Of a DNA stretch of 64,000 nt, positions 34,013 to 64,000 are shown in pieces; position 1 is the stretch's first letter, and the number at the start of each line of letters is the position of its first letter. Source of the stretch: Chloroflexota bacterium (GTDB lineage Bacteria; Chloroflexota; JAJPGV01); contig JAJPGV010000062.1 of assembly GCA_021325635.1 (NCBI GenBank), forward strand, positions 1 through 64,000, read 5' to 3'. The position numbers and the translations under genes are program-made. The notes under the pieces are model-generated. The model made no database searches. It saw only the letters and a program-made list of their open reading frames with translations, and had not been told where the DNA came from.

Positions 34013-35701
34013 CTAGAACAGGAAGTAGCGCTGGGCCATGGGCAGGACATCCGCGGGTTCGCAGGTGAGCCACTGGCCGTCCGCTTCGACGCGGTATGTC
34101 TCGGGGTCCACCGTGATTGTCGGCGTAGCCGCATTCAGTGCCATCGAGTGCTTGCCGATGTCGCGCGTGTGGGCCACGGCCATGGCCGCTTTGCGCAGGC
34201 CCAGCCGCTCCGGAACACCGGACGACAGCGCCGCGGCCGACACAAACGTCAGCGACGTCGCCTGCCGGGCCGCCGCGCCAAACATGGGCCGGTACAGGAC
34301 CGGCTGCGGTGTGGGGATAGAGGCGTTGGGATCGCCCATCGCCGCCCAGGCAATCATCCCTCCTTTGAGCACCAACTCTGGTTTCACGCCGAAGAAGGCT
34401 GGCTTCCATAGCACCAGATCGGCCAGCTTACCCATCTCCACAGAGCCCACGACGCGCGAAATACCGTGGGTGATGGCTGGATTGATGGTGTATTTGGCGA
34501 TGTAGCGCTTGATGCGAGCGTTGTCCGCCTCGCCGCTATCACCTTCGAGGGGTCCGCGCTGCAGCTTCATCTTGTGCGCCGTCTGCCAGGTTCGCATGAT
34601 GACCTCGCCAACGCGGCCCATGGCCTGGGAGTCGGAGCTCATCATGCTGATAGCTCCGAGGTCGTGCAGGATGTCCTCGGCGGCAATGGTCTCCGGGCGG
34701 ATACGAGACTCGGCAAAGGCGAGATCCTCAGGAACGTCGGCGGATAGGTGGTGGCACACCATCAGCATGTCCAGGTGCTCGCGCAGCGTGTTCACGGTGT
34801 ATGGCCGGGTGGGGTTGGTCGAAGACGGCAGTACGTTCGGCAGGCCCACAACCTTGATGATGTCGGGTGCGTGACCTCCGCCTGCCCCTTCGGTGTGGTA
34901 GGTGTGAATAGCGCGGTTGCCGATGGCGGCAATGGTGTCTTCGACGAAGCCAGCTTCGTTGAGTGTGTCGGTGTGGATCGCCACCTGCACGTCCAGGTCG
35001 TCGGCTACCCGCAGACAGGTGTCGATGGCCGCGGGCGTCGAGCCCCAGTCTTCGTGCAGCTTGAGGCCAATAGCGCCTGCCTGCACCTGTTCGGCCAGCG
35101 CTTCATAGCTGCAGGAGTTGCCCTTGCCGAGGAACCCCAGGTTTACCGGGTAGGCGTCGGCCGCCTGCAGCATACGCTCGATGTTCCACCGTCCGGGCGT
35201 GCAAGTGGTGGCGTTGGTGCCGGTAGCAGGGCCGGTGCCACCGCCAATCATGGTTGTCACACCGGACGAGATGGCCTCGTCGATCTGCTGCGGGGAAATG
35301 AAGTGGATGTGCGTGTCGATGCCGCCGGCAGTGAGGATCAGACCCTCAGCGGCGAGGATCTCGGTCCCCGCCCCGATCTCGAGCGCCGGGTCCACGCCAT
35401 CCATGACGTCACCGTTGCCGGCCTTGCCGATAGCCGTGATACGGCCACCCTTGACGCCAATGTCGGCCTTGAGCACGCCCCAGTAGTCGACGATCAGCGC
35501 GTTGGTGATGACCAGGTCCGGCACGTCCACCGACTGGCCCTGGCCCATGCCATCGCGGATGACCTTGCCGCCGCCGAACTTGGCCTCGTCGCCGTACACG
35601 CCGAAGTCGCGCTCCACCTGCGCGAACAGCTCGGTGTCCGCCAGGCGAACGCGATCGCCGGTCGTAGGGCCGTAGTGGGCGGCATAGTCACCGCGGTCCA
35701 T
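34013..35701 (-). CDS. ureC: Urease subunit alpha
   Basis: A 562-residue catalytic urease subunit that hydrolyses urea to ammonia and carbamate at a di-nickel centre. Nickel ligands are visible: IDTHIHF, the carbamylated Lys214 ([12 protein letters not shown]), and [13 protein letters not shown] and [16 protein letters not shown] histidines. The mobile flap has MVCHHLS with the catalytic His, and the metal Asp lies in [13 protein letters not shown]. Start ATG 35701 begins [20 protein letters not shown], the normal N-terminus, one base after the ureB stop; a longer frame overlapping ureB is artefactual. Confidence 0.97.
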
Positions 35702-55082: not shown

Positions 55083-55145
55083 TAGCTCAACCCGTGCTTG
55101 GGGGACTTCAGTATGGTGCGCCTAGCAAGCAGTAGGATTTTCGGG

Positions 55146-58100
55146 ATGTCGGAGTTGCGGCCGGGCGTCTATGAAGCCTTACTGACAAAGCTGCTCGCAA
55201 TGCGGCTCCCCGATGACGAGAGCCTGTATCAGCTGGCTGCGTTGGATCGCGCTGACACGCCTGCGCTGCTCGCCCGCCATCTGGCAGCCATTCTCGAGAG
55301 TGTGCTCAGGGCACCGAGCTTCGAAGCCGACCCTGAGCGTCAAATCGCCTTCTGCAACGAACTCATCGATAGCTTGTCCAGACAGGCACACCTCGATGGT
55401 CCCTTTGACGAGCTGCTGGACCAACGAGCGCGCCAGCTGCTGGAGGTTCTTCGCCCGCCCGAAACTCCGCTGGCCAAACTTGAGCCGCTCCCTCGACCGA
55501 CGATTCCGCTATCTCAGAATGCGTTGCTCGTGGCGTCAAAGCAGGAACCCGCTCTGGCTGGCGAACTGCGGCGAGAACTCGCTTCAGCAGATCGTGTGGA
55601 CCTCCTCTGTGCCTTCGTGAAATGGAGCGGCATTCGGGTGCTTCTGGACGAGCTGCGCCAGGTTCGAGCCCGCGGCGTGCCCATCCGCGTGATCACCACA
55701 ACCTATACCGGGGTGACGGAAGCACGAGCCCTCGACGAGCTGGCTGCGCTCGGTGTAGAGATCAAGGTCTGTTATGAGACGGGGTCGACGCGGCTCCATG
55801 CCAAGGCCTGGCTTTTCGAGCGCGATAGCGGGTTCTCGACTGCGTACATCGGCTCGTCGAATCTCAGCCATTCGGCGTTGCATGAGGGACTCGAGTGGAA
55901 CGTCCGGCTCACGCAAGCAGTATCGGCCTCCTTGCTTGAGCGGTTCCGCGCCACCTTTGAAACGTATTGGGCGGATCCGAGCTTCGAGCCATATGTGCCC
56001 GAGGATTTCCAGGCCGCCATCGGTCGGGCCGTTCAGAGTTTCGATACCGAGCTGGTCCCGTTCGATATCCTGCCCTACCCGTTTCAGCGGGACATGCTTT
56101 ACCAGCTAGAGGTGGAGAGGAGGCGTCACGACCGCTGGCGCAATCTGCTGGTTGCGGCGACGGGCACTGGCAAGACCGTAGTCTCGGCATTTGATTACAA
56201 GCGGCTCTCAGAGGAATGGGGTGGGGCGTCGCTGCTGTTTGTTGCTCATCGGCACGAGATCCTGAAACAGAGCCTTGCCACCTTCCGCAACGTGCTTCGC
56301 GACGGCAACTTTGGAGAGCTCATGGTCGCCGGCGAGCGTCCAACCGAAGGCCGGCATGTATTTGCCTCGATTCAATCGCTGCACGCTTTGGGTCGTTCCC
56401 GTCTGGACGCTTTCGCACGCGATGCATACGACGTGGTGGTTGTCGATGAGTTCCACCATGCGGAAGCACCGACCTATCAAAGCCTGCTCGAACGGCTCCA
56501 GCCCAAAGTCCTGCTGGGAATGACAGCTACGCCAGAGCGAGCCGATGGGCTGGACATCAAACGCTGGTTTGATGGCCACATAGCGGTCGAGCTGCGCTTG
56601 TGGGATGCGCTTGAGCAGGGGCTGCTTTGCCCGTTCCAGTACTTCGGCGTCGCGGACGACGTAGACCTCTCAGAGATCAGGTGGAGCCGCGGCGGTTATG
56701 ACCTCGGCCAGCTTGAGGGCGTTTATACCGGGAACGATGCCCGCGTGGCCAAGGTACTCAAAGCGCTAAGCGACATCGTCGAAGACCAGAGCGAGATGCG
56801 AGCTCTTGGATTTTGTGTCAGTGTGCGGCACGCCCACTACATGGCCGAGTGCTTCCAGCGCGCTGGTATTCCAGCCGTGGCAGTGTCGGCCGATTCAACG
56901 CCGACTGAGCGGTCCGATGCTCTCCAAGCCCTTCGGACGCGGGAGATAAACGTCATCTTCGCCGTGGACCTGTTCAATGAGGGCCTGGACATCCCCGAGA
57001 TCGATACGGTCTTGTTCCTCAGGCCCACCGAAAGCCCCGTCGTGTTCCTGCAGCAGCTGGGCCGAGGGCTGCGGCGGACGGACTCGAAAGCTGGACTGAC
57101 GGTCCTTGATTTCATCGGACAGCAGCATCAGCGCTTTCGGTTTGAAGAACGCTACAAGGCTTTGTTGGGCGGTGACCGGCGGCATGTTCTTCGGCAAATC
57201 GAGGATGGATTCCCCTACCTGCCGGCCGGGTGCGCCATCAATCTGGATCGCCAGTCCGAGAAGGCCATCCTCGACAATATTCGCCGCACGGTAGCCCATT
57301 TGCGGTCGCAGCTGAGCGAGCAACTGCGAGAGCTCGGCGATGTCAGTCTCCGCCAGTTCGTTGAGAAGAGCGGCTTTGCACTAGAGGACGTGTATTCGGG
57401 GAGCAACCCCGGTTGGACCGTCATTAGGCGGCAGGCTGGCTTTGTTGCTGGCAGTGGTCCCGATGAGGCGCAGCTTGGTAGGGCGCTCGGGCGGATGCTG
57501 CACATCGATGATCCGCTCCGGGTAGCCGCCTATCTCGACTGGCTATCGGATCCTCGTCCACCGGACGTCCAACGCTCGAACGAGCGAGAGCGACGCCTAC
57601 TTCAGATGCTGCACTTCGGCCTGTGGTCGGCAAGCCCGACGTCGTCATCGTTGCAGGCATCACTTGAGCGCCTCTGGTCGAACTCGAATATTGTGAGTGA
57701 GCTGCGCGAATTATTGGAACTGCTCGGCGATCGAGCGTCACGTCTCGCGCCGGAGGCCGGCCTGGAACCGGAAATCCCACTGCGGTTACACGGCCGATAT
57801 TCGCGCAATGAACTGCTGGCTGCGTTTGGTGAAACGACGGCGGAGCGACCGGCCACCTGGAGAGAAGGAGTGAAGTGGATCGAGCGCTACACGCTGGACG
57901 TATTCCTTGTGACGCTGAACAAGACCGAGCGCCACTTTTCGCCGACCACGCGCTACCGCGATTACCCGATTTCGCCGAGGTTGTTCCACTGGGAGTCGCA
58001 ATCGACCACCAGCGAGGCTTCACCGACTGGCCAGCGCTACATCCACCATGTAGAACGTGGGAGCCGGATGCTTCTCTTCGTGCGCGAGAGCAATGTCGGC

Positions 58101-58244
58101 GACAATCTCGGCGCCTCGCCGTTTGTTTTCCTTGGAACCGCCTCATATGTCCGCCACCAAGGTGAGCGGCCGATGGCAATCGTGTGGGAGCTTGAGCATG
58201 AGATGCCACCGGATTTGTTCCAGGCTGCGAAGGTCGCCGCCTAG
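55146..58244 (+). CDS. PLD-nuclease/DEAD-like helicase fusion (DUF3427 type)
   Basis: A 1032-residue protein. An N-terminal helical part (1-130) is followed by a phospholipase-D-type nuclease domain (about 135-275) with one HKD motif (His218, Lys220 in LHAKAWLF; YIGSSNLSHS). Next comes an SF2 helicase core (about 310-680) with Walker A ATGTGKT (Lys343), DEFHHA (Asp434), MTATPER and the motif VI QQLGRGLRR. The C-terminal 350 residues match the DUF3427-type tail found in such helicases. The single HKD implies dimerisation. ATG 55146 gives the usual start (MSELRPGVYEALL); ATG 55113 and TTG 55098 are alternatives. Probably a DNA-translocating nuclease in defence. Confidence 0.88.
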   Translation: MSELRPGVYEALLTKLLAMRLPDDESLYQLAALDRADTPALLARHLAAILESVLRAPSFEADPERQIAFCNELIDSLSRQAHLDGPFDELLDQRARQLLEVLRPPETPLAKLEPLPRPTIPLSQNALLVASKQEPALAGELRRELASADRVDLLCAFVKWSGIRVLLDELRQVRARGVPIRVITTTYTGVTEARALDELAALGVEIKVCYETGSTRLHAKAWLFERDSGFSTAYIGSSNLSHSALHEGLEWNVRLTQAVSASLLERFRATFETYWADPSFEPYVPEDFQAAIGRAVQSFDTELVPFDILPYPFQRDMLYQLEVERRRHDRWRNLLVAATGTGKTVVSAFDYKRLSEEWGGASLLFVAHRHEILKQSLATFRNVLRDGNFGELMVAGERPTEGRHVFASIQSLHALGRSRLDAFARDAYDVVVVDEFHHAEAPTYQSLLERLQPKVLLGMTATPERADGLDIKRWFDGHIAVELRLWDALEQGLLCPFQYFGVADDVDLSEIRWSRGGYDLGQLEGVYTGNDARVAKVLKALSDIVEDQSEMRALGFCVSVRHAHYMAECFQRAGIPAVAVSADSTPTERSDALQALRTREINVIFAVDLFNEGLDIPEIDTVLFLRPTESPVVFLQQLGRGLRRTDSKAGLTVLDFIGQQHQRFRFEERYKALLGGDRRHVLRQIEDGFPYLPAGCAINLDRQSEKAILDNIRRTVAHLRSQLSEQLRELGDVSLRQFVEKSGFALEDVYSGSNPGWTVIRRQAGFVAGSGPDEAQLGRALGRMLHIDDPLRVAAYLDWLSDPRPPDVQRSNERERRLLQMLHFGLWSASPTSSSLQASLERLWSNSNIVSELRELLELLGDRASRLAPEAGLEPEIPLRLHGRYSRNELLAAFGETTAERPATWREGVKWIERYTLDVFLVTLNKTERHFSPTTRYRDYPISPRLFHWESQSTTSEASPTGQRYIHHVERGSRMLLFVRESNVGDNLGASPFVFLGTASYVRHQGERPMAIVWELEHEMPPDLFQAAKVAA

Positions 58245-58282
58245 CCAGTTGCCCTGATAGCCGTAGAATGAGGGGCTGCTAG

Positions 58283-59212
58283 ATGGTCGGATTTATCGCG
58301 ACTACGGACTTCGATTGGTACAGCTACCTGCGGGACCAGCGTGACCTGGACGAAGTCAACTTCTGGCAGCCTTCCGGTGGTCGCGGTTTTCACGCCATAG
58401 CTCCCGGGGCTCCGTTCTTCTTTAAGCTCAAGAGCCCGCACTACGCAATTGGAGGGTTCGGCTACTTCGCACGAAACTCGGTCCTGCCTGATTGGCTCGC
58501 ATGGGACTCTTTCGGTCGTGCAAACGGCGCGCCGGACCTGCAAGCTATGCGCGAGCGCATTCGCAAATACCGTCGGCGGTTTGGCGGAGAACTTGGCGAC
58601 GGATTCCACATCGGCTGCCTCATGATTTCGCAGCCGGTCTTCTTTGAAGAGCGTGATTGGATTCCTCAGCCGCGTGACTGGGCGGCCAACATCGTATCAG
58701 GGGCCACGTACAACTTGGATTCGGGCGAGGGCCAGCGCGTGTGGCTCGAGTGCCTGGCGCGAGCGGCGACCCGACAGTCGGCGGAGATTCGAATGGTTGC
58801 TGAGGAGCGAGCCCGGTATGGAGAGCCGGTCCTGGTGCAGCCCAGATTGGGTCAGGGCACGTTCCGCATCGCCGTCACCGACGCTTACCGGCGCGCGTGC
58901 GCTGTCAGTGGCGAGCACTCGCTCCCGGTACTCGACGTGGCCCATATCAAACCGTACGGCGAGGGCGGAGAACACGAAATCAGCAATGGCTTGCTTTTGC
59001 GCACTGACATTCACCGGTTGTTCGATCGCGGTTACGTCACGGTGACACCGGATTACCGCTTCGAGGTGAGTCGGCTGCTGCGGGAGGAATACGAGAACGG
59101 TCGCACGTATTACGCTCTGCAGGGACAGCGCATTGCACTACCGCGCCTCCCGGACGACCAACCGTCGACACTCGCACTTCGATGGCACAACAATCAGGTC
59201 TTCAAGACCTAA
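58283..59212 (+). CDS. HNH restriction endonuclease with N-terminal reader-like domain
   Basis: A 309-residue protein. The N-terminal half (1-165; FIATTDFDWYSYLRDQ, FWQPSGGRGFHAIAPGAPFF, FKLKSPHYAIGGFGYF) is a conserved module of HNH nucleases, PUA/EVE-like in appearance, possibly recognising modified bases. The HNH domain (about 195-255) shows CAVSGEHSLPVLDVAHIKPY with His221 and NGLLLRTDIHRLFDRGYVTV, of the HNH_2 type. ATG 58283 has GAGGGG upstream. It starts 38 bases after the helicase stop, so both are probably one operon acting on foreign DNA. Confidence 0.87.
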   Translation: MVGFIATTDFDWYSYLRDQRDLDEVNFWQPSGGRGFHAIAPGAPFFFKLKSPHYAIGGFGYFARNSVLPDWLAWDSFGRANGAPDLQAMRERIRKYRRRFGGELGDGFHIGCLMISQPVFFEERDWIPQPRDWAANIVSGATYNLDSGEGQRVWLECLARAATRQSAEIRMVAEERARYGEPVLVQPRLGQGTFRIAVTDAYRRACAVSGEHSLPVLDVAHIKPYGEGGEHEISNGLLLRTDIHRLFDRGYVTVTPDYRFEVSRLLREEYENGRTYYALQGQRIALPRLPDDQPSTLALRWHNNQVFKT

Positions 59213-59272: not shown

Positions 59273-60271
59273 TTACTGGCGGCGGCTCGCGTCCGACACT
59301 GAGACAGCGCCTTGGGGTGCCTGTTGTGAGGCTGCCGGTGCCGTCCCTCCTGAGGAATCCAATGGCGCCGCCGTCGGTGTCGACTGGGGGGGTGCAGATG
59401 GCGAACTCGGAATGGCGTTGGCGCCCGTATTGCTGGGCGTCACGACGACGACATTAGGTGCTGATGGACTCTTGATGACGATGTAGACGCCGGCCGCGGC
59501 AAACAGCACGGCAAGGACGCCGAGGGCTGCCAATGCAAACGTGAAAAGACGGAATCCTTGCGTAGCTAGGTCTTGGGTGCGTTCAAGCGCCGCTTGTAAC
59601 TGGCCCTCGAGGGCGTCGAACTTGGCTTCAATAGCGCGCCAGCCACCCTGGAGCGGGGGGCCGTCGTGCTTTCGCAAAAAGTCTCGCAAGGAGAAAGAGT
59701 TCTGGTACTCGCCTCCTTGCGAAGGGTAGTCCCAGGCTCCTTCCCGCCATTCGGTCGTGTATGTAAATTCCACCGTGAAGACGTGGTCGCCTCGCCGCAA
59801 ATACACATCGCCCTGGGCGAAGTTGTATAGCAGTCCGAATATTCGTCCCGTGAAACCGGGGTCGATCTGCCCCTGACTGAGCAGCCCCGCGCCCTTATTC
59901 GCCAAAGTACGACGTAAATAACAGCGCCCTGTCAGGTCGCGCGGCATCTGGAGCGTTTCGAGTGTCGACACAAAGACGAAGTCATTCGCCTTCATGACGA
60001 TTGTGTCCTGCTCGTCGCTCAGAGTGCGAAAGCCGCCATCCTGGTAATACTCATTTCCCAGGCGAAGGTCGTAGCTTGCGGGACCGAACTGTTCAGCATC
60101 GGCCCCAACCAGAAGGTTAGCTTCGGCGGTTAATCGCTGAATCTCGACCCCAAGTAGTACTCCTTGTGGCATTTGCGAGGCGACCGTCTCGTAACCTCGG
60201 CTAGGGGATGCGGCTCCCGATTCGGGATCTTTGGTGTCATCTACGTCGCCGCTTTGTGGAGTCTCATCCAT
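59273..60271 (-). CDS. Membrane-anchored dCTP deaminase/dUTPase-fold protein
   Basis: A 332-residue protein. Residues 38-172 match the trimeric Dcd/dUTPase fold: QFGPASYDLRLGNEYY (62-76), LTGRCYLRRTLANKGAG (113-129), QIDPGFTGRIFGLLYNF (135-151) and LRRGDHVFTVEF. In dCTP deaminases the strand after IDPG has the catalytic Glu (LEF); here it is Leu148 in GLLYNF, so deaminase activity is unlikely. A coiled coil (208-238), one membrane segment (241-267) and a Ser/Pro/Ala-rich tail follow. It is the last gene of the leftward operon, 55 bases after the methyltransferase. Could sense nucleotides at the membrane. Confidence 0.82.
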   Translation of the reverse strand: MDETPQSGDVDDTKDPESGAASPSRGYETVASQMPQGVLLGVEIQRLTAEANLLVGADAEQFGPASYDLRLGNEYYQDGGFRTLSDEQDTIVMKANDFVFVSTLETLQMPRDLTGRCYLRRTLANKGAGLLSQGQIDPGFTGRIFGLLYNFAQGDVYLRRGDHVFTVEFTYTTEWREGAWDYPSQGGEYQNSFSLRDFLRKHDGPPLQGGWRAIEAKFDALEGQLQAALERTQDLATQGFRLFTFALAALGVLAVLFAAAGVYIVIKSPSAPNVVVVTPSNTGANAIPSSPSAPPQSTPTAAPLDSSGGTAPAASQQAPQGAVSVSDASRRQ

Positions 60272-60326
60272 GCGGATGCAGGGTAAGATCTTGGAACTTA
60301 GGCGTCAAACCCGTTTCGCGGGCATT

Positions 60327-61517
60327 TTAGAACGCATGGGTGCTCATATCGAGGACTGCTCGGAATCTCCTCATGAGAGTCGAACGTTCTCCCGCACTTG
60401 GGCTGGCTTCTTTGACTCCGTCGTCAATCGAACCACCTTGTTGCAGGATCGATAGAACAGCGGTAACCGCAGCACGTTGACCGACTTGGGCCACTCTATT
60501 CCGCGACGTCCAGAAGTCGATTCGCGACCGAAGTGGCTCGCGCGAGCTCACGCTAGGCAAAACGAACCGCGGACATTCATCCAAAGGGGCAAGGACCTCA
60601 CCGGGAGGACCTGAGGTGGCCTCTCGCAGCTTGATGACCTGGGCCCCCACGACGAAAGTCTCCCAGCTCACCTCAGCCTCAGGCTCCATAGGCGGTAACA
60701 TCGGTGCCGATCGTGTGATGCGGACGGCTACGAGGTCTCCGCGCCGCCATGGACCAGGGTCGGGAACGCCCGCCTCTGCCAATGCGCGAGCTTCAAAAAG
60801 GGGGGTTTCATATTCGATACACGACTCGCGAACAGAAGTGACTCCCGCCTCACCAGCGAACGCGAGTATCCTGTCGCGCTCGTCATTTGCACCGGGACGA
60901 GTCAGCCGTGGAAATAACGAAAACAGGACGATGCCCTTGGGCTCCGCGGCGCGCCAGGCTCGCCAGAACCAGTACATCGCGGCTTGCTCATACCATGGAG
61001 CGTCGAAGAAAACTGCTGGGAACGTATCTGGTGCGGTCCACGCGCTGATGTTCGATGTTGTGATGTCCAGACCGGTGACGTTCCGGAATCGTTCCTTGAC
61101 AAGAGGATTGGCATCCAAAAGCACGGTCTGCCGTGACTGAGAAAGCGCAGCCGCCACTGTCGGAGCGCCAATGCAAAGCATGCGCGAAATGTTTTGAGGG
61201 AGTGCAGCAAGGATTGAGTCGATTCCGCGTTGCGAGAAGTACCACTCGAAATCGATCGGGTGCAGCTCCGGATCGTAGTGTTTGCGCCCGACTGAAGCCG
61301 TCGACTGGCGCCGTTCGGCGGACCGGACATTGGTTCTTCCAAGAAGCCGCGCGTACACGATGCTGGGAAAGGCGCCGCGCACACGAGGGACGATTTCGGC
61401 GAAGGTGGCTTCAGGGAACTCACGAACAACCTGGTCTATGCGGCGATCCACGGCATCAACGTAAGCTCGGGAGACCTCAGTGACCTGTACGGCTGGAACA
61501 GAATGCGCCGCTGACAT
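60327..61517 (-). CDS. Predicted DNA adenine-type methyltransferase (DAPW motif)
   Basis: A 396-residue Rossmann-fold methyltransferase-like protein. SAM motif I appears as RMLCIGAPTVAAAL (113-126), the acidic turn as TVLLDANP, and motif IV as FFDAPWYEQAAMYWFWRAW (171-189). The DAPW there resembles the (D/N)PPW motif of N6-adenine and MT-A70-like enzymes. The first 100 residues are helical and may bind DNA. Its ATG overlaps the DUF4186-protein stop by one base (TGATG). RNA, DNA or small-molecule methylation cannot be told apart; Ala in place of the first Pro is unusual. Confidence 0.72.
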   Translation of the reverse strand: MSAAHSVPAVQVTEVSRAYVDAVDRRIDQVVREFPEATFAEIVPRVRGAFPSIVYARLLGRTNVRSAERRQSTASVGRKHYDPELHPIDFEWYFSQRGIDSILAALPQNISRMLCIGAPTVAAALSQSRQTVLLDANPLVKERFRNVTGLDITTSNISAWTAPDTFPAVFFDAPWYEQAAMYWFWRAWRAAEPKGIVLFSLFPRLTRPGANDERDRILAFAGEAGVTSVRESCIEYETPLFEARALAEAGVPDPGPWRRGDLVAVRITRSAPMLPPMEPEAEVSWETFVVGAQVIKLREATSGPPGEVLAPLDECPRFVLPSVSSREPLRSRIDFWTSRNRVAQVGQRAAVTAVLSILQQGGSIDDGVKEASPSAGERSTLMRRFRAVLDMSTHAF

Positions 61518-62059
61518 CAGTCAGTTGGCCATTTCGCGTCTATGAAAAGCATTGCCATGGACACAAGGAATTCGATTTGGTCGTCCTGAAGGTCTTGATC
61601 CCGAGGTATTCCCCACCAGAGATCGATGCATTTCCGGCAGCAACATGCCGTTGCGTGTTGCGCTCGATAGATGATGTTCCCCTCAAACGGGGTCTGCATG
61701 CCATCTCGAAATTGTTTGGCGCTTGCCACGGAGGACCGGATCCGATGGCGCACCAGGTCCCTCATGCTCTCGCGGGGCTGCTTCCCAATGCGCGCTAGTG
61801 ACGCTGGATCCAGAGGTTCCTCCCAGAAGTAGTTCCCTACCCACTCCTTCCGAAGCATCTCAATGTACGACTTCGCTTGGCTGAGGTCTCGGGCATGAGT
61901 GCTGTCCCAGTCAACAACCGCAGCGCCGCACGATTGGCAGTTGCCACGAATTGGAGATGTCTTCGCACGCGATTTTGTTCGAAGGTTGTGGAGTCCGTGC
62001 TCGCAGTCAGATTTGCCACAGAGGCCCTCAAGCTTTGGCAGTGGGGGAGGAGATGTCAT
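61517..62059 (-). CDS. Zinc-ribbon plus DUF4186-like protein
   Basis: A 180-residue cysteine-rich protein. The N-terminal part has four Cys (14, 19, 41, 44: LCGKSDCEHG, GNCQSCGAAV), a probable zinc ribbon. The C-terminal part (about 85-178) resembles DUF4186: GMQTPFEGNIIYRAQHATAC, then CCRKCIDLWWGIP and a terminal helix EFLVSMAMLFID. The Cys cluster 139-144 and His135 may bind a second metal. ATG 62059 overlaps the upstream gene by four bases. Function unknown; position suggests a partner or adaptor of the methyltransferase. Confidence 0.75.
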   Translation of the reverse strand: MTSPPPLPKLEGLCGKSDCEHGLHNLRTKSRAKTSPIRGNCQSCGAAVVDWDSTHARDLSQAKSYIEMLRKEWVGNYFWEEPLDPASLARIGKQPRESMRDLVRHRIRSSVASAKQFRDGMQTPFEGNIIYRAQHATACCCRKCIDLWWGIPRDQDLQDDQIEFLVSMAMLFIDAKWPTD

Positions 62060-63567
62060 CGTGATATTGCTCCATCCAGTGCGGCGAGCAACAGATTTCG
62101 GTCATCCGCAGGCAGCCGCCCAAGAGCCAAACGCGACAAAAGGATGTCGCGTGCGACCGACCACGGAGACGGCGAAGTCATCTGCAAGCTCGTGGCTGTT
62201 GGCCACCAGTTAGTTTGGTTTTCAGCGGAAAGCCGGTAGGCCAAATAATTGGCTAGTACGTCGGGTCGGACATCATGCGCTTTCGCAATCCGTTGTACAG
62301 CCGCCTTTAAGTTCTGCTCTGAGCGGGCACTCTGGATTGTCTCAGCCGCGAGATCATGTGCACGATTCCGCAGAAGAACTGCGTTCGCAAACTCAGTCGC
62401 CTCTTCCTCTTCCTCCGACTCCGGCTTGAGGGCCGCAATCTCGGACGTCTCGAGGATTACAGGTCGGTTCTTCGACAGGTGATGTGTGACATGGAACGAT
62501 TCATGTCCTAGGTCAACCAGCCAACCCGCTTGAAAGTCGGTCATGCGCTTCAAGGCGATGACAATTCGCCCTTCGATGCTCCAACAAGCACCAAAGAATG
62601 TGCCGTGATCGCGGAGCGGCAGTACTGCGATCCCCGCATCCCAAACGAATCGGAGCATGGTCTCAAATGTGAGAGCACCGTACTGCGCAGTGATCTGGTC
62701 GCGAAACTCATCTGGGTCGGTCGGGAGCGTCCTCGTTACGAGATCAGGGGTTGCTAGAACAACACATCGCGCCAAGAAATGCGCATACACGGAGTAAGCC
62801 TGGGCGTGAAGCTCGTTAGTGCGGCCGCGCATCTTGTATCGAACCGGACTAGTGGCCAGATTGAGTGACAGATTCTCCCCACTGAGCACCTTGGAGGTGG
62901 ACCAGTCGAAGACGCGGCTCACAGCCGCGGCAAGACGCGCGAGAACATCCTCATCGGATCCGTCTAACCGGTCTCGTACAACACCGTATGCTGGAAGAAG
63001 GCGCTTCAAAACGAGATCTCGGTCGATACCGACATGTGATAGGCGAGACATAAGCGATGACAAACTCGTTGACGAACGCGGTTCGACACTGAGATCGCGT
63101 AATGAGCATCCCATGGCTGCGAGGATGCGCTGAAGGGTCGTGAAGACCACGTCGTGACGGCCGTTCTCGATTCGTGATAGCGACTGAGGCGAGATCCCGG
63201 CTCTCTCGGCAAGCTCCTTACCTGTAAAGTTTCGGGCTTCACGAAGCTCTTTGATCCGCAGACCGACTTGCCGGGCCTGCTCGTCTGCGATCGCTGCTAA
63301 GTGATTGCTGTACGCCTTGTCCGTAAGCACCCTGACGGATGACCATGGAATCTCTACGACACCGCCTTCTGCGGGGACAGTAATCTCGTATGGACCGACT
63401 TCCAGCTGGTCCCAGTCGGGGCTACTTGAGCCAGCCGGCAGCACAGCGTGCCCTTCGACGTTTACGTGTGAGCCATCCTGAAATGACACCGACAGCTTGC
63501 CCTTGTGAAAGCTCGCAGCGGCAATCCGTTGATACTCAGGCAGATCCCAGGTATTCACGGTGGTCAT
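62056..63567 (-). CDS. DUF2442-XRE HTH-ImmA/IrrE metallopeptidase regulator
   Basis: A 503-residue three-domain protein. Residues 1-95 are DUF2442-like (SVSFQDGSHVNVEGHAV, VEIPWSSVRVLTDKAYSNHL). Residues 101-160 are an XRE helix-turn-helix (RIKELREARNFTGKELAERA, GISPQSLSRIENGRHDVVFT). The C-terminal half is an ImmA/IrrE-like zinc peptidase with HESFH (355-359) and a distal Glu (EATEFAN, about 392). Such proteins cleave repressors on DNA damage or phage signals. It overlaps the neighbours by four bases on both sides. It is the likely binder of the operator at 63820 and the switch of the operon. Confidence 0.88.
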   Translation of the reverse strand: MTTVNTWDLPEYQRIAAASFHKGKLSVSFQDGSHVNVEGHAVLPAGSSSPDWDQLEVGPYEITVPAEGGVVEIPWSSVRVLTDKAYSNHLAAIADEQARQVGLRIKELREARNFTGKELAERAGISPQSLSRIENGRHDVVFTTLQRILAAMGCSLRDLSVEPRSSTSLSSLMSRLSHVGIDRDLVLKRLLPAYGVVRDRLDGSDEDVLARLAAAVSRVFDWSTSKVLSGENLSLNLATSPVRYKMRGRTNELHAQAYSVYAHFLARCVVLATPDLVTRTLPTDPDEFRDQITAQYGALTFETMLRFVWDAGIAVLPLRDHGTFFGACWSIEGRIVIALKRMTDFQAGWLVDLGHESFHVTHHLSKNRPVILETSEIAALKPESEEEEEATEFANAVLLRNRAHDLAAETIQSARSEQNLKAAVQRIAKAHDVRPDVLANYLAYRLSAENQTNWWPTATSLQMTSPSPWSVARDILLSRLALGRLPADDRNLLLAALDGAISR

Positions 63568-63806
63568 GCCGAGGCCCCTCCAGGATTGAGTTCATCCCAG
63601 GCTGCACAGATCAGATCGAGGTTCTCCGTCAAGACCGCTCGGGCATCGCGCGGCAATGCTCCGCCGGCCACCACGACCAAGCTCGGTAGCGCCACCGCTA
63701 TCGAGTTCTCTCCCCAACGAATGTGACAGTGTGGCAACTTGTGCTGGCCTCCAACCTCGGGATACACGTATACGACATATGCTCCACAGCGAAGCACGCT
63801 TGGCAT
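63564..63806 (-). CDS. DUF4160 family protein
   Basis: An 80-residue protein of the DUF4160 type (MPSVLRCGAYVVYVYPEVGG, LPHCHIRWGENSIAVALPSL), normally adjacent to DUF2442 proteins, as here. DUF4160-DUF2442 pairs behave like small toxin-antitoxin-like units in databases, but the function is not established. ATG 63806 is preferred to TTG 63842 because the promoter occupies 63814-63842; the resulting mRNA would be nearly leaderless. It overlaps the next gene by four bases (ATGA). Confidence 0.85.
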   Translation of the reverse strand: MPSVLRCGAYVVYVYPEVGGQHKLPHCHIRWGENSIAVALPSLVVVAGGALPRDARAVLTENLDLICAAWDELNPGGASA

Positions 63807-63813
63807 CTCGACC

Positions 63814-63842
63814 AGTATAAACGTATACGTTAATGATGTCAA
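63814..63842 (-). promoter_or_regulatory. Near-consensus sigma-70 promoter of the five-gene operon
   Basis: Read on the minus strand: TTGACA (63842-63837), a 17-base spacer, then TATACT (63819-63814). The first codon begins at 63806, seven bases after the -10 box, so transcription should start at or beside the A of ATG and the mRNA would have almost no leader. Confidence 0.75.
63820..63831. promoter_or_regulatory. Perfect 12-bp palindromic operator in the promoter spacer
   Basis: AACGTATACGTT is fully self-complementary and fills the -10-proximal part of the spacer. Its core CGTATACG occurs again at 63767-63774 inside the first gene, centre-to-centre 55 bp. A repressor bound here would block RNA polymerase; the XRE protein encoded second in the operon is the obvious candidate. 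Confidence 0.6.
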
Positions 63843-63890: not shown

Positions 63891-64000
63891 CTATAAGTGG
63901 GACAGAACGAGGCCCCCAAGTTCGCTGGCGTCTTCGTCCAGATCAGCTGCGTTCACGACAAGCAACCGACCGTCGTATCTATCAAAGAAGCCTTCGTAGG
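63891..64000 (-). CDS. C-terminal end of a protein cut by the window edge
   Basis: The last 35 codons of a leftward gene, ending in TAG at 63893-63891, 49 bases upstream of the promoter at 63842. The readable end (YEGFFDRYDGRLLVVNAADL) has a form seen near the C-terminus of some P-loop kinases and deoxynucleoside kinases, but the piece is too short to assign. Frame choice rests on being open to the edge and protein-like. Confidence 0.5.
   Translation of the reverse strand, partial: YEGFFDRYDGRLLVVNAADLDEDASELGGLVLSHL

Follow-up and report, generated by a model that had tools for sequence, protein, structure and literature searches.

Several described bacterial systems share components with the locus analyzed here. 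Prokaryotic viperins (pVip) are radical SAM enzymes, in part accompanied by nucleotide kinases. In ImmR-ImmA of ICEBs1 and in DdrO-IrrE, an XRE repressor with an operator at the promoter is paired with an M78 metallopeptidase bearing an HExxH motif, and in the DhiTA toxin-antitoxin pair (DUF4160/DUF2442) a DUF4160 protein stands beside a DNA-binding partner. dCTP deaminases and dGTPases deplete deoxynucleoside triphosphates (dNTPs) in defense, and (PIN)-GNAT-EVE operons contain ASCH and AAA_17 genes (PMC7641849). The locus under study lies at the end of a 64,000-nucleotide stretch, hereafter the window (bases 1-64000 of the 108-kb contig JAJPGV010000062.1, from a Chloroflexota bacterium). There, a preliminary description had proposed a complete five-gene operon joining DUF4160, XRE-ImmA/IrrE, DUF4186, methyltransferase and Dcd-like proteins. 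We tentatively interpret it, at a little under even odds, as part of one form of an operon that is widespread, moves horizontally and regulates itself, and that would encode an inducible nucleotide-modification pathway, likely directed against phages or plasmids. The cluster spans contig positions 59273-68283 and contains the following elements:

59273..60271, minus strand: Dcd-like protein of 332 amino acids (Pfam DCD, 1.2e-15), with a C-terminal transmembrane (TM) helix
60327..61517, minus strand: class I methyltransferase-like protein of 396 amino acids, with homologues in the same operon elsewhere
61517..62059, minus strand: zinc-ribbon-like DUF4186 protein of 180 amino acids (Pfam DUF4186, 3.8e-22)
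62056..63567, minus strand: predicted fused XRE-ImmA/IrrE repressor-protease of 503 amino acids, with an HESFH motif (HTH_3, 3.4e-15)
63564..63806, minus strand: DUF4160 protein (Pfam, 3e-6), the reading frame being open to a TTG at 63842
63817..63834, minus strand: putative operator ATTAACGTATACGTTTAT, in the promoter spacer and reaching into the -10 box
63814..63842, minus strand: sigma-70-type promoter TTGACA-17-TATACT (11 of 12 consensus bases)
contig 63891-64505 (window part, 63891..64000), minus strand: deoxynucleoside-kinase-like gene, cut by the window end
contig 64530-65105, minus strand: nucleoside monophosphate (NMP)-kinase-like protein, upstream continuation of the cluster
contig 65102-66076, minus strand: TylF-like methyltransferase, upstream continuation of the cluster
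contig 66084-67097, minus strand: ASCH-DUF4186 fusion, upstream continuation of the cluster
contig 67240-68283, plus strand, divergent: radical SAM gene (Pfam radical SAM, 9e-7)

The five minus-strand open reading frames of the proposed unit were all present (the first as 63842-63564), with overlaps of 4, 4 and 1 bases followed by a 55-base gap, and the strong promoter ahead of them was found as described. The TTG that had been taken as the start of the DUF4160 gene sits inside the -35 box. The starts of the relatives point instead to the ATG at 63806, which lies about 7 nucleotides after the -10 box and would give a nearly leaderless message. Pfam matched DUF4160, HTH_3, DUF4186 and DCD in agreement with the domain calls, whereas DUF2442 was detected neither in the window XRE protein nor in seven relatives of DUF4160 type. 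For its part, the ImmA/IrrE call was below threshold for the window protein itself (E value of 0.084), which carries the XRE helix-turn-helix, and its peptidase domain was recognized by full-length alignment (33 to 38% identity) to plasmid relatives that pass Peptidase_M78, with the HExxH motif kept. The N-terminal 90 residues have no assigned domain. The unit did not prove to be a complete operon. Beyond the window end, the same strand carries four further genes, followed by the divergent radical SAM gene, so that the five-gene unit is half of a ten-gene, 9-kb cluster, and its boundary is an artifact of the window end that cuts it. The two halves have GC contents of 0.577 and 0.574, compared with 0.646 for the whole window.

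A profile scan with an alignment of the radical SAM proteins against 84,980 species genomes found 87 relatives, and 80 loci were retained. The gene counts that follow refer to the 87 loci, two of them being pieces of the window's own contig and some being truncated. XRE-ImmA and DUF4186 were each present in 79 loci, the NMP-kinase-like protein in 78, ASCH in 76 and the methyltransferase in 70, in line with the expectation that families of the five-gene unit co-occur elsewhere; DUF6932 was found in 60, DUF4160 in 13 and the Dcd-like protein in 7. The radical SAM, ASCH and kinase genes, which also recur as core, fall outside the window. The commonest order was DUF6932-XRE-DUF4186-radical SAM-methyltransferase-ASCH-kinase (n = 30), with DUF4160 taking the position of DUF6932 in other loci, and core neighbors mostly overlap, median gaps between them ranging from -26 (methyltransferase-ASCH) to +4 bases. 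Pairwise distances among the six main families were correlated (Mantel r of 0.58 to 0.89, with 0 of 200 permutations as high), so the families travel as a unit.

Beyond the window, the core occurs in about 85 other genomes and plasmids of over a dozen phyla, including Cyanobacteriota, Pseudomonadota, Bacteroidota, Actinomycetota, Chloroflexota, Acidobacteriota, Planctomycetota, Bacillota, Myxococcota, Ignavibacteriota and Verrucomicrobiota, and one relative (L019) lies in a metagenome-assembled genome of Nitrososphaerota. The window radical SAM protein clusters with L019 and cyanobacteria (support of 94, open fork), and the TylF-like genes of the window and L019 are 51% identical. In the L019 copy, a transposase gene (L019:11452-12306) splits the methyltransferase gene, the remaining genes looking intact. 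Plasmid searches with DUF4186 and the methyltransferase recovered the same seven-gene operon from Tolypothrix, Aulosira, Nostoc, Roseovarius and Rhizobium, and most of these plasmids were classed as conjugative. No viral relatives were found with DUF4186, the radical SAM protein or the 20-bp operator pattern. The operon is rare and patchy, each group having it in fewer than 1% of the genomes sampled. The counts, central genomes included, were 1 of 400 for the phylum of the window, 1 of 292 and 2 of 385 for the sets around two further members, and 1 of 300 for the set around L019. With its order kept, its families codiverging and its own 20-bp operator across a dozen or more phyla, it very likely constitutes one working pathway.

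Of 57 DUF6932-type loci, 54 carry the palindrome ACACAAC-N6-GTTGTGT close to the first gene (at least 12 of 14 positions), with a density of 1.71 sites/kb there versus 0.0048/kb elsewhere in the same loci. A different form, ATTAAC-N6-GTTAAT, was present in 10 of 11 DUF4160-type loci and nowhere else in them, and the two forms never crossed between the two types. The counts are descriptive, since the motifs were derived from the same loci, the contrast with the rest being about 350-fold. The window element belongs to the second form; it lies between the -35 and -10 boxes, is identical in two other loci (L027 and L078) and has a single copy in its genome. In four of six other genomes, the perfect operator had a single occurrence, ~3.4 kb from the radical SAM gene, and the remaining two had imperfect copies. 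The operator was kept even though the regulators of ten DUF6932-type loci are only 30 to 53% identical. A single site of this kind is what a dedicated autorepressor would leave, and the XRE-ImmA protein is its presumed ligand. The idea that this protein acts as a switch is backed by the conserved operator, and a repressor-protease switch is well supported by these sequence patterns.

The radical SAM protein is the most conserved member (51 to 59% identity between window and plasmid copies). It has the CX3CX2C and GGxP-type SAM motifs, further invariant cysteines at positions 50 and 207, and an NCxGxGR motif. Its model (predicted local distance difference test [pLDDT] score of 94.6) was nearest to PFL-activating enzyme (Foldseek probability of 1.00), with QueE, viperin, BlsE and MiaB also among the fold neighbors; motifs and predicted fold together place it in the radical SAM superfamily. 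By sequence, its matches to the PDB were limited to the radical SAM core (best E value of 0.0087), its best PADLOC match was a very weak one to pVip in the core region only (1e-4 and 1e-3), and two radical SAM proteins scored 19.5 and 11.0 bits against a viperin model with a cutoff of 180. Profile searches with the kinase found UMP/CMP and adenylate kinases, and the protein keeps Walker A together with FG..R and DG.R motifs, which we take to be NMP-contact residues.

The methyltransferase of the window had no Pfam, NCBIfam or PADLOC family, and its matches to the PDB by sequence were weak (best E value of 0.038). In the family, a DPPW motif comes after a degenerate motif I, which is weakly reminiscent of the motif order in RsmD-type enzymes. 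A second operon context of the methyltransferase was observed on alphaproteobacterial plasmids (L015, L117 and L014) with a PUA-like metallophosphoesterase, joined in two of the three loci by an adenylosuccinate-synthetase-like protein plus DUF7002 or a hypothetical protein of similar size. It is possibly a sister system, and it likewise points to nucleotide chemistry. DUF4186 has an invariant Cys/His cluster and a CC-x2-C motif; its AlphaFold model is all-helical (pLDDT of 90.2) and had no solved-fold match in a Foldseek search of the PDB. The model of the window protein (61517-62059) matched a predicted protein of Pithovirus LCPAC001 (E value of 2e-4), the only viral fold match below 0.001. 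A single ASCH sequence searched against the PDB gave only unrelated alphaRep matches.

The Dcd-like protein, proposed in the preliminary description as the effector, is optional (six relatives). A C-terminal hydrophobic or TM helix is present in the window protein and in the five relatives examined. The position of the catalytic Glu (that of 4xjc) is Leu in the window and Arg or Lys in the aligned relatives, so nucleotide binding or a dUTPase-like activity is more likely than deamination. The window protein scored 71.3 bits against the NCBIfam Dcd model (cutoff of 92.8), a relative scored 57.4, and no PADLOC dCTP-deaminase model was matched. An HD-domain dGTPase-like gene adjoins the operon in five cyanobacterial loci (L011, L016, L017, L018 and L020). 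The optional deoxynucleoside-kinase-like, Dcd-like and dGTPase-like partners all belong to nucleotide metabolism and are best read as fitting an inducible nucleotide-modification pathway.

Defense surroundings, also anticipated in the preliminary description, were found around relatives, many of whose neighbors are defense genes. PADLOC was applied to 117 randomly drawn flank proteins of relatives and 111 control proteins. Among the matches listed, those of the flanks included DrmA, DrmD, AbiEi, AbiD, IetA, NsnB, PD-Lambda-5, an Argonaute-linked nuclease and restriction enzymes, and those of the controls were few and mostly to generic superfamilies. The contrast is support rather than proof, since it covers only the matches listed and a control from a single phylum. 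Of the core genes, the methyltransferase and DUF4186 had no match in PADLOC v2.0.0 and the others only weak domain-level ones, the match of DUF6932 being to the candidate PDC-M63A (4e-11). The combination was absent from PADLOC, NCBIfam and Pfam models and from the open-access papers searched (subscription papers and preprints lay outside the search), in agreement with the earlier failure to recognize a named system. Open-access searches on DUF4186 and DUF6932 gave nothing relevant, and those on the combined topics gave related reviews only.

Next to the cluster, at 55098-59212 on the plus strand, the window encodes a PLD-helicase-DUF3427 protein (PADLOC mREase_IV, 1e-283) and, after it, an HNH protein that weakly resembles phosphorothioate-DNA restriction enzymes; the two probably form a type IV-like restriction pair. 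On the other side, the island continues at contig positions ~69340-82000 (L004:6341-19001) with a WYL regulator, a 1146-amino-acid RecB/Dna2-like protein, a CAP12-type TIR protein, a PbeA-like helicase with an MzaB-like ATPase, and a PLD-like gene. Elsewhere, an Rfam 5_ureB_sRNA match (119 bits) was observed at 35275-35561 on the plus strand.

According to the interpretation that we prefer, the fused XRE-ImmA protein would hold the operon low from the palindromic operator over the promoter until a stress or invasion signal, perhaps sensed with the DUF6932 or DUF4160 partner, led the protease to inactivate the repressor. The radical SAM enzyme would then perform the key chemistry on a nucleotide or deoxynucleotide, and the NMP-kinase-like protein, plus the deoxynucleoside kinase in the window cluster, would phosphorylate the modified product. 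The methyltransferase and DUF4186 would complete or assist the modification, ASCH might bind the product or its nucleic-acid form, and the optional Dcd-like or dGTPase-like proteins might bind competing dNTPs or trim them; the pathway would likely serve against phages or plasmids. In its strictest form, with a new radical SAM subfamily providing a new modified nucleotide, partners that phosphorylate and methylate it, and a cross-phylum operator under the repressor-protease, this would be an undescribed inducible immune pathway, which is possible but doubtful. Several observations weigh against the interpretation. The window radical SAM gene is separate and divergent, and no operator was found near it. 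The window methyltransferase and kinase depart from near-invariant residues (DAPW where relatives have DPPW and Y for R at 93 in the former; N for H at 98 in the latter) and so may be specialized or decaying. In addition, some loci lack the methyltransferase, the defense control came from one phylum, and the radical SAM model leaves the substrate unsettled.

Modification of DNA or RNA would suit the methyltransferase and ASCH just as well. The main alternative, rather unlikely in our view, is that the radical SAM enzyme, the methyltransferase and DUF4186 act directly on bases in DNA or RNA (tRNA/rRNA), with ASCH as the reader and the kinase working on nucleic-acid ends or in precursor supply, as in restriction-modification or RNA protection. 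ASCH belongs to the PUA-like superfamily, which binds modified bases (PMC7641849). The DPPW-type methyltransferase with its weak RsmD-like similarity, the presence of MiaB among the fold neighbors and the zinc ribbon in DUF4186 also agree with modification of a polymer. Against it, the presumed NMP-contact motifs of the kinase are conserved, the operon has no nuclease and the optional partners are dNTP enzymes.

It appears improbable that the operon serves the biosynthesis of a small nucleoside-like compound (an antibiotic or a signal) and has no relation to phage defense: radical SAM enzymes, methyltransferases, a kinase and a TylF-like O-methyltransferase are known from nucleoside biosynthesis and BlsE is a fold neighbor, yet no transporter or self-resistance gene recurs among the neighbors, the core order is constant across phyla, unlike that of metabolite clusters, and the ImmA-type switch and defense surroundings argue against it. 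Quite improbable too is an addiction module of plasmids or islands, with DUF6932 or DUF4160 as the toxin, XRE-ImmA as the antitoxin and the rest as cargo. The weak resemblance of DUF4160 to the DhiT toxin, the GS...DxD pattern of minimal nucleotidyltransferases in DUF6932 and the plasmid location would suit such a module, but the remaining genes do not behave as cargo, since the radical SAM protein is the most conserved and all families codiverge. The switch-adaptor-modifier system of five genes originally proposed, with a membrane Dcd-like nucleotide sensor as its output, is very improbable; the TM helix recurs and the Dcd-like gene lies mostly between DUF4186 and the radical SAM gene, but it is absent from about 80 of the 87 loci, and the recurrent core extends past the artifactual boundary.

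The operon brings together an uncharacterized radical SAM subfamily, a methyltransferase family absent from Pfam, and DUF4186, whose confident model had no solved-fold match. Its operator allows direct tests of the switch and of what triggers it. Its comparison with known systems reveals likeness in parts. The ImmR-ImmA and DdrO-IrrE pairs share the XRE repressor, the M78 metallopeptidase and the promoter operator, whereas the operon here fuses the two domains in a single protein, pairs it with a DUF6932 or DUF4160 gene and has a regulon of one site. DhiTA shares a DUF4160 protein beside a DNA-binding partner, but the window DUF4160 reached 27.1 bits against a DhiT cutoff of 100, DUF2442 was not detected by Pfam, and the gene heads a longer operon. 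The dNTP-depletion systems have in common a Dcd-fold protein and dGTPase-like neighbors, unlike them in that the protein here is optional, lacks the catalytic Glu and matches no PADLOC dCTP-deaminase model. With (PIN)-GNAT-EVE operons it shares ASCH, an AAA_17-type P-loop protein, XRE domains and a restriction-system neighborhood, while no GNAT, EVE or PIN domain was found here and the key enzyme is a radical SAM protein. Closest in logic is viperin plus kinase, which the operon resembles in its radical SAM enzyme, its nucleotide-kinase-like partner and a distant fold similarity, without viperin membership, given the 19.5 bits already mentioned and seven genes that include the methyltransferase, ASCH, DUF4186 and a switch of their own. 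If an antiviral nucleotide is indeed made, viperin would gain a second counterpart with a distinct chemistry. The gene combination is new with respect to the models and papers searched; its mechanism may turn out to be a known one.

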